DNA of 64,000 nt from Thermophilibacter provencensis (lineage in GTDB: Bacteria; Actinomycetota; Coriobacteriia; Coriobacteriales; Atopobiaceae), in the NCBI RefSeq assembly GCF_900128445.1, contig NZ_LT671417.1:496001-560000 (forward strand), read 5' to 3'. The translations under genes and the position numbers were made by a program. Below the pieces are notes generated by a model. It was not told the origin of the DNA. It did no database searches and was given only the letters and a program-made list of their open reading frames with translations. This document shows, piece after piece, positions 4,982-42,216 of this stretch. The stretch's first letter is position 1. Each line of letters opens with the position of its first letter.

Positions 4982-5048
4982 CTGACAGGGGTGACGGGGT
5001 CAACCGTCATGAATCATTCATGACGGTTGACCCCGTCACCCCTGTCAG
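4982..5048. repeat. 33-bp perfect inverted repeat, variant of the TGACA palindrome
   Basis: Bases 4982-5014 and 5016-5048 are perfect reverse complements around one base. The arms read like those at 2377-2463 but with several substitutions (for example GTGACGGGGTCAACCGTCA instead of GTGACAGGGTCAACTGTCA), each matched in the other arm. A further outer pair, ATTTGCTGAC at 4977-4986 and its complement at 5056-5065, partly overlaps it. The element follows the glgB stop and may end transcription. Confidence 0.93.
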
Positions 5049-5192
5049 TCACCCCGTCAGCAAATGTTTCAAAAATGAGTCACTTCTCGCCGAGGGGATG
5101 GTCGGACCCCGTTCAAGTCCTATAGTCAGCCTCGTCAGACAGCCGCGGACCAATAGCCCGCGCCCGCTCAACTACTGAGGAGGCCAACGTTG

Positions 5193-5270
5193 ATGAACGT
5201 TCACAGCGCGCACGTGCCCGCTGCCGCCCTCCTCGCCACCCGACGCCAGAACCGACGAATCACGCCCTAG
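5193..5270 (+). CDS. Arginine-codon leader peptide upstream of argG
   Basis: A 25-codon frame with its own strong ribosome site (GAGGAGG, 5177-5183) starts at ATG 5193 and ends at TAG 5270, 115 bases before argG. Residues 16-22 read T-R-R-Q-N-R-R, with arginine codons CGA, CGC, CGA, CGA; CGA looks rare in the surrounding genes, which use mostly CGC. Clustered codons for the end product of the downstream pathway are the hallmark of a translated attenuator leader. A TATAGT at 5121-5126 is a possible -10 box. Expression has to be inferred; the peptide has no other apparent function. Confidence 0.72.
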   Translation: MNVHSAHVPAAALLATRRQNRRITP

Positions 5271-5340
5271 ATGTCGCGTGTCGCTCCCGCATGCCGGTTC
5301 TTATCGCCAGACCATGCCCAGCGCCCCGCGACGTCGGGGC
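5270..5340 (+). promoter_or_regulatory. Candidate attenuator between leader peptide and argG
   Basis: A GC hairpin pairs GCCCCG (5323-5328) with CGGGGC (5335-5340). The segment GATGTCGCG (5270-5278), starting at the leader stop codon, can instead pair with CGCGACGTC (5327-5335), which contains the loop and parts of both stem arms. The two structures exclude each other, and a ribosome stalled at the leader's Arg codons would lie just upstream of the first segment. The hairpin is not followed by a clean T run, so transcriptional or translational control cannot be decided here. Confidence 0.5.
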
Positions 5341-5385
5341 ATTGTTATGAAGACGTAGTTCACCCAGGACGAAAGGGAAACCATC

Positions 5386-6615
<1,230 letters not shown>

Positions 6616-42139: not shown

Positions 42140-42216
42140 TGGTGCGGCGTATAGGATTCGAACCTATGACGCCCTGATTCGTAGTCAGGTCCTCTATCCA
42201 GCTGAGGTAACGCCGC
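42140..42216 (-). tRNA. tRNA-Arg (anticodon ACG)
   Basis: Acceptor GCGGCGT/ACGCCGC, D arm, anticodon arm CCTGA-CTACGAA-TCAGG with ACG (read as ICG), T arm ATAGG-TTCGAAT-CCTAT, encoded CCA. With the leader peptide rich in CGA/CGC codons it is worth noting that this tRNA would read them. Confidence 0.95.

Follow-up and report, generated by a model that had tools for sequence, protein, structure and literature searches.

The window analysed here, a 64,000-nucleotide stretch of Thermophilibacter provencensis contig NZ_LT671417.1, carries argG, encoding argininosuccinate synthase, behind a leader region that sits between glgB and argG, as identified with NCBIfam models (Table 1). The closest named relatives of its ArgG come from Olsenella sp. 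and Thermophilibacter species. Transcription probably starts ~7 nt 3′ of the TATAGT element. The leader ORF runs from an ATG at 5193-5195 to a TAG at 5268-5270 and its product ends in ...RRQNRRITP, with three CGA and one CGC among the Arg codons of the RRQNRR motif; a short ORF with a ribosome-binding site is thereby placed between the promoter and the first structural gene. The argG gene has its own ribosome site.

Table 1. Features of the argG leader region and the presumed decoding tRNA, in window coordinates
Feature	Position	Strand	Basis
-10 promoter element TATAGT	5121..5126	+	sequence; TATAGT/TACACT at the equivalent place in relatives
5′ hairpin preceding the leader ORF	5142..5165	+	GCGGGC..GCCCGC in relatives
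Shine-Dalgarno (SD) sequence GAGGAGG of the leader ORF	5177..5183	+	sequence; strong SD in nearly all relatives
Leader peptide ORF MNVHSAHVPAAALLATRRQNRRITP, 25 codons + TAG	5193..5270	+	sequence, relatives
Putative regulatory codons CGA CGC CAG AAC CGA CGA (RRQNRR)	5241..5258	+	sequence, relatives
Antiterminator 5′ arm (GCCCUAGAUGUCGCG... CGC)	5264..5284	+	pairing and footprint folding
Antiterminator apical stem, GCATG 5289-5293 / CATGC 5313-5317	5289..5317	+	fold; in relatives the sequences differ yet pair (by inspection)
Antiterminator 3′ arm (shares bases with the terminator hairpin)	5321..5340	+	pairing
Intrinsic terminator GCCCCG-cgacgt-CGGGGC (5323-5340) with weak U-tract	5323..5349	+	sequence; terminator covaries in other genera
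argG, argininosuccinate synthase, putative regulated gene	5386..6615	+	scores exceed the curated cut-offs of TIGR00032 and NF001770
tRNA-Arg(ACG), presumed reader of leader CGA/CGC/CGU	42143..42216	-	tRNA detection

Two mutually exclusive pairings can be drawn downstream of the motif. The segment GATGTCGCG (5270-5278), which starts on the final base of the leader's stop codon, pairs over 9 bp, including one G-U, with CGCGACGTC (5327-5335), which falls within the terminator hairpin. This antiterminator extends beyond 9 bp, as GCCCU upstream of the stop pairs with the 3′ arm of the hairpin and CGC pairs with GCG. An intrinsic terminator thus precedes the structural gene. Its U-tract (ATTGTTATG) is weak in the window, and many relatives have a better one. 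The plain minimum free energy of the window leader RNA is weakly better than that of shuffles (z -1.67), and with no ribosome present it folds at equilibrium into the antiterminator; therefore, the attenuation model needs a ribosome for termination. A first-pass annotation of this DNA had described a 25-codon frame with a strong ribosome site and an RRQNRR end holding three CGA codons, followed by a hairpin and an exclusive 9-bp pairing from the leader stop. Direct reading bears out each of these elements, the pairing being in fact longer than was stated. That annotation had recognised no ArgR box, and none was seen by eye here either, though the genome has an ArgR gene.

The leader frame is widely conserved in the window's family. 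Since a codon-restricted DNA pattern skews the counts of Gln and CGA, both were recounted on a set picked by ArgG similarity only, for which argG loci were gathered blind to leader and codons (named set, n = 78). An RRxxRR leader is present at 42 of these 78 named loci, a further match (L292) being a chance hit. RRQxRR together with an SD sequence, a start codon and a variable N-terminus precedes argG in 65 genomes from 12 genera of the family, and a thirteenth genus has an RRQxRR leader, at L061, that the DNA pattern missed. Scanning with the pattern returns essentially one match per genome, at argG, and the remaining matches look like coding chance. When the region upstream of argG in the window was dinucleotide-shuffled, 11 of 3000 shuffles gave an ATG-initiated, SD-preceded ORF holding 4 or more Arg within 6 codons; over the whole motif-selected set, a comparable ORF arose in 12 of 1340 shuffles, versus 63 of 67 observed. 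Overall, the chance rate of such an ORF in shuffled upstream regions is 0.4-0.9%. Two genera of the family (g27 and g31) have argG without any such leader, and upstream of the window's argH and the genome's argCJBD operon no comparable leader was found, the small Arg-rich frames there being poor or inside genes. In genomes with a divergent ArgG, argR lies directly upstream of argG, which makes apt the earlier remark that argG is usually under ArgR. A class-level motif search beyond the family gave, among the matches listed, only ones that look like chance. By protein-based sampling, an RRQDRR leader was observed before argG in two genomes of genus g47 (L190 and L191), which is placed in another family; it may reflect horizontal transfer or deeper ancestry.

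The RNA elements are conserved to different degrees. A scripted search finds a GC-rich hairpin, mostly with a U-tract, after the leader in nearly all sequences, and in the multi-genus set the terminator covaries, with 96% of cells paired and a covariation score reached by none of 500 shuffles. In most genera, the antiterminator arm can base-pair, at much the same register, with the terminator's 5′ half, and in 37 of 58 sequences this pairing is stronger than that of shuffled arms. Single compensating changes are seen, such as GCGACGCC/GGCGTCGC in L119 versus GCGATGCC/GGCATCGC in L085. Counted over all pairs, however, antiterminator covariation does not exceed that of shuffles, partly because several species join GCGACGCC with GGCATCGC, a mismatch, and covariation is therefore not claimed for the antiterminator. 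Its arms hardly vary within the window's genus, and RNAalifold on the multi-genus set returned, instead of the antiterminator, a small hairpin inside its 5′ arm together with the terminator. The first-pass annotation had staked its reading on a conserved frame with Arg codons and had proposed looking for covarying stems in relatives. The frame, SD sequence, Arg codons and terminator all proved conserved, with the antiterminator present in most genera; as to covarying stems, the terminator alone showed them.

Codons of the pathway product are conserved at the control position, with a strong preference for CGA. The leader Arg codons are almost exclusively CGA, CGC and CGU. CGA makes up 108 of ~156 motif Arg codons in the codon-blind set, as against 4 of 178 in eight genes of the window (two-thirds versus ~2%), counts that are not independent since the leader sequences are related. 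A34 of tRNA-Arg(ACG) becomes inosine and reads CGA poorly. Among the best 30 of 50 tRNA loci that were typed, tRNA-Arg(CCG) and tRNA-Arg(TCT) are also present.

The effect of ribosome position was computed from folds constrained by a ribosome footprint (-15 to +12 relative to the A site), comparing the probability of the terminator, P(terminator), for a ribosome at the leader stop with that for a ribosome whose A site is on the fifth motif codon; this is an equilibrium computation that leaves kinetics and RNA polymerase aside. Of 63 sequences, 41 give a higher P(terminator) with the ribosome at the stop than with it stalled, and 4 give a lower one; the window's own values are 0.29 at the stop and 0.00 stalled. 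The mean difference, stop minus stalled, is +0.30 over 58 distinct sequences, and -0.13 (sd 0.04 of set means) in a control in which the motif-to-terminator stretch was shuffled. In five genera (g6, g24, g25, g26 and g29, the last being Tractidigestivibacter), this effect is small or absent. The start of the antiterminator arm lies 25-29 nt past the first motif base, just outside the estimated edge of a ribosome with its A site on the last Arg pair. By this computation, ribosome position switches both structures, and the footprint folds support a scheme in which stalling would mean antitermination and completion of the leader would mean termination.

Taken together, argG is very probably controlled by transcription attenuation in which a ribosome on the leader senses the charging of tRNA-Arg. 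The leader ORF, the conserved Arg codons, the conserved terminator, the alternative pairing and the computed ribosome-position effect are accounted for most economically by attenuation through ribosome stalling on Arg codons, which would be a new specificity of a known kind. We infer that the leader is translated, that ribosomes stall in it on uncharged tRNA-Arg, that transcription terminates at the hairpin in vivo and that arginine shortage raises expression. In the proposed mechanism, RNA polymerase would transcribe the leader with a ribosome trailing on the 25-codon ORF. When tRNA-Arg(ACG) is well charged, the ribosome would pass RRQNRR, reach the stop codon and cover the antiterminator arm, so that the hairpin at 5323-5340 could form and transcription would end before argG. 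Under arginine shortage, the ribosome would instead wait on the CGA/CGC codons at 5241-5258 and leave 5270-5284 free to pair with the 5′ half of the terminator, allowing the polymerase to continue into argG.

Within the motif, the Gln of RRQ nearly matches the arginines in conservation (41 of 43 in the codon-blind set) and the R-R-Q-x-R-R order is almost invariant. tRNA charging alone leaves the near-invariant Gln unexplained, which is the main reason for keeping nascent-peptide arrest as a rival, whereby the ...RRQxRR chain, perhaps with free arginine or another ligand, would stall the ribosome and throw the same RNA switch. Such an arrest would also fit Thermophilibacter leaders that keep Q-x-R-R after losing the first one or two arginines (for example NRQMRRI, IRQNRRITP and TSQMRRI); RRHDRR, RRRAIRIS and HARRTTQ are other degenerate forms in the family. 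However, RRH, RRR and RRM occur in place of RRQ; x varies freely, being N, D, G, A, S, M or I; the N-terminal part of the leader is not conserved between genera; and the strong CGA preference favours decoding over peptide chemistry. We regard peptide arrest as unlikely. A tentative and rather doubtful extension of the attenuator reading is that peptide identity, with its near-invariant Gln, and the clustered CGA codons of a single tRNA act jointly, within a wider set of Arg-codon switches before argG in this order, to which the Collinsella-like leader and the argR tail of Eggerthellaceae-like genomes described below would belong. If true, an attenuator could have been born from the tail of an upstream repressor gene, which would be a new evolutionary route.

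The clustering of rare CGA codons in the leader could suit a general sensor of translation stress, in which ribosomes would stall at slowly decoded CGA pairs or under an antibiotic, whatever the arginine supply, and any slow translation would induce argG; antibiotic-sensing uORFs do exist in bacteria (PMC12121999). Yet the controlled gene is always an arginine biosynthesis enzyme, motif matches at other genes look like chance, and such a sensor seems very improbable. That the CGACGCCAG...CGACG block is a protein-binding DNA or RNA site, such as one bound by a regulator of arginine genes, with an incidental reading frame, agrees with the conservation of third codon positions and with the ArgR gene in the genome but is hardly credible, as variation falls on the codon-sized x slot, the SD sequence and start codon are kept at a variable in-frame distance from the motif, and the block lies within the transcribed leader ahead of the terminator.

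Classical leader-peptide transcription attenuators are those of trp, his, leu and ilv, while the control of bacterial arginine biosynthesis is usually credited to the ArgR repressor. The proposed attenuator at argG shares with the classical systems a short leader ORF in which codons for the pathway product abound, followed by a terminator and a putative antiterminator that would exclude each other, and differs in that the argG leader would sense arginine. In Actinobacteria, leader-peptide attenuators have been predicted for trp, trpS, leuS and ilvB, and in the same 2005 survey the regions ahead of actinobacterial arginine operons yielded no conserved RNA structures (PMC1262725). T-boxes, which regulate arginine genes in other bacteria (PMC1262725), are alike in sensing tRNA-Arg charging at the RNA level but have no leader peptide; the argG leader gave no Rfam match at the gathering score or at E ≤ 1 and is not assigned to the T-box riboswitches. 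In Salmonella, ORF34 of the speF leader contains two consecutive Arg codons, at which ribosome pausing in low arginine alters RNA folding and raises expression (PMC6386406). Pausing at Arg codons of a leader ORF is what the argG leader would share with it; that system controls ornithine decarboxylase and works through Rho, RBS occlusion and RNase G, unlike the intrinsic terminator at argG. ORF34 (DUF2618) has the core HIRRT..HIMM; five argG leader peptides gave no Pfam match and the downstream gene is argG, so the leader is not placed in that family. The rbfL leader of Staphylococcus aureus likewise encodes a peptide with rare Arg codons and senses arginine shortage by ribosome pausing (PMC13009471), but there RBS occlusion controls translation initiation of a biofilm regulator (rbf), the codons are AGA/AGG read by tRNA-Arg(UCU), and low arginine lowers rbf expression. 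Neither the speF nor the rbf leader is an attenuator of arginine biosynthesis. Several other amino acids have known leader-peptide attenuators; the open-access literature searched, in which subscription papers are few, contains none for arginine biosynthesis and no report of this argG leader system, an absence that falls short of proof. An attenuator for arginine biosynthesis conserved over about a dozen genera thus seems to be undescribed. Such an attenuator across gut Atopobiaceae would fill a gap beside the ArgR-centred picture, in a family where argG adjoins argR in some genera and lies under a leader peptide in others, and it would offer a natural test of how isoacceptor choice, here CGA via tRNA-Arg(ACG), sets attenuator sensitivity.

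Other Arg-rich arrangements were observed before argG, under group labels drawn from the nearest named records and ArgG similarity. In Collinsella-like loci (L184, L185, L209, L216, L217 and L218), a distinct conserved frame ends in RRQRAISRRR (CCCGACGACGATAA), and its counterpart in L186, also Collinsella-like, ends in ALPRRR. In single-sequence folds, the last Arg codons of the Collinsella-like frames form a possible hairpin 5′ arm that pairs with a downstream stretch ending in CGTCGGG or similar, followed by a U-run. In Eggerthellaceae-like loci (L196, L198, L201, L202, L207, L208, L211, L212, L213, L219 and L222), argR lies directly before argG and its product ends in LRRR. The argR end, CGACGACGNTA(A/G)TCGTC, is a hairpin that overlaps the stop codon of argR ahead of argG, formed by the CGACGACGN codons and the stop (CGACGACGATAATTCGTCGTC in L211), often with a T-rich stretch after it.

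Two further elements lie upstream of the leader in the window. A conserved TGTTTC-centred element (5063-5088), ahead of the -10 box, is present at most leader-bearing argG loci, ~145-205 nt upstream of the leader Arg codons; it is unlike an ArgR box in look and may be a regulator site, and its reversed sequence, GAAACA, is found ahead of argH as well. Between glgB and argG there is also a near-perfect 67-bp palindrome (4982-5048), and about six relatives, mostly palindromic, are scattered through the genome.
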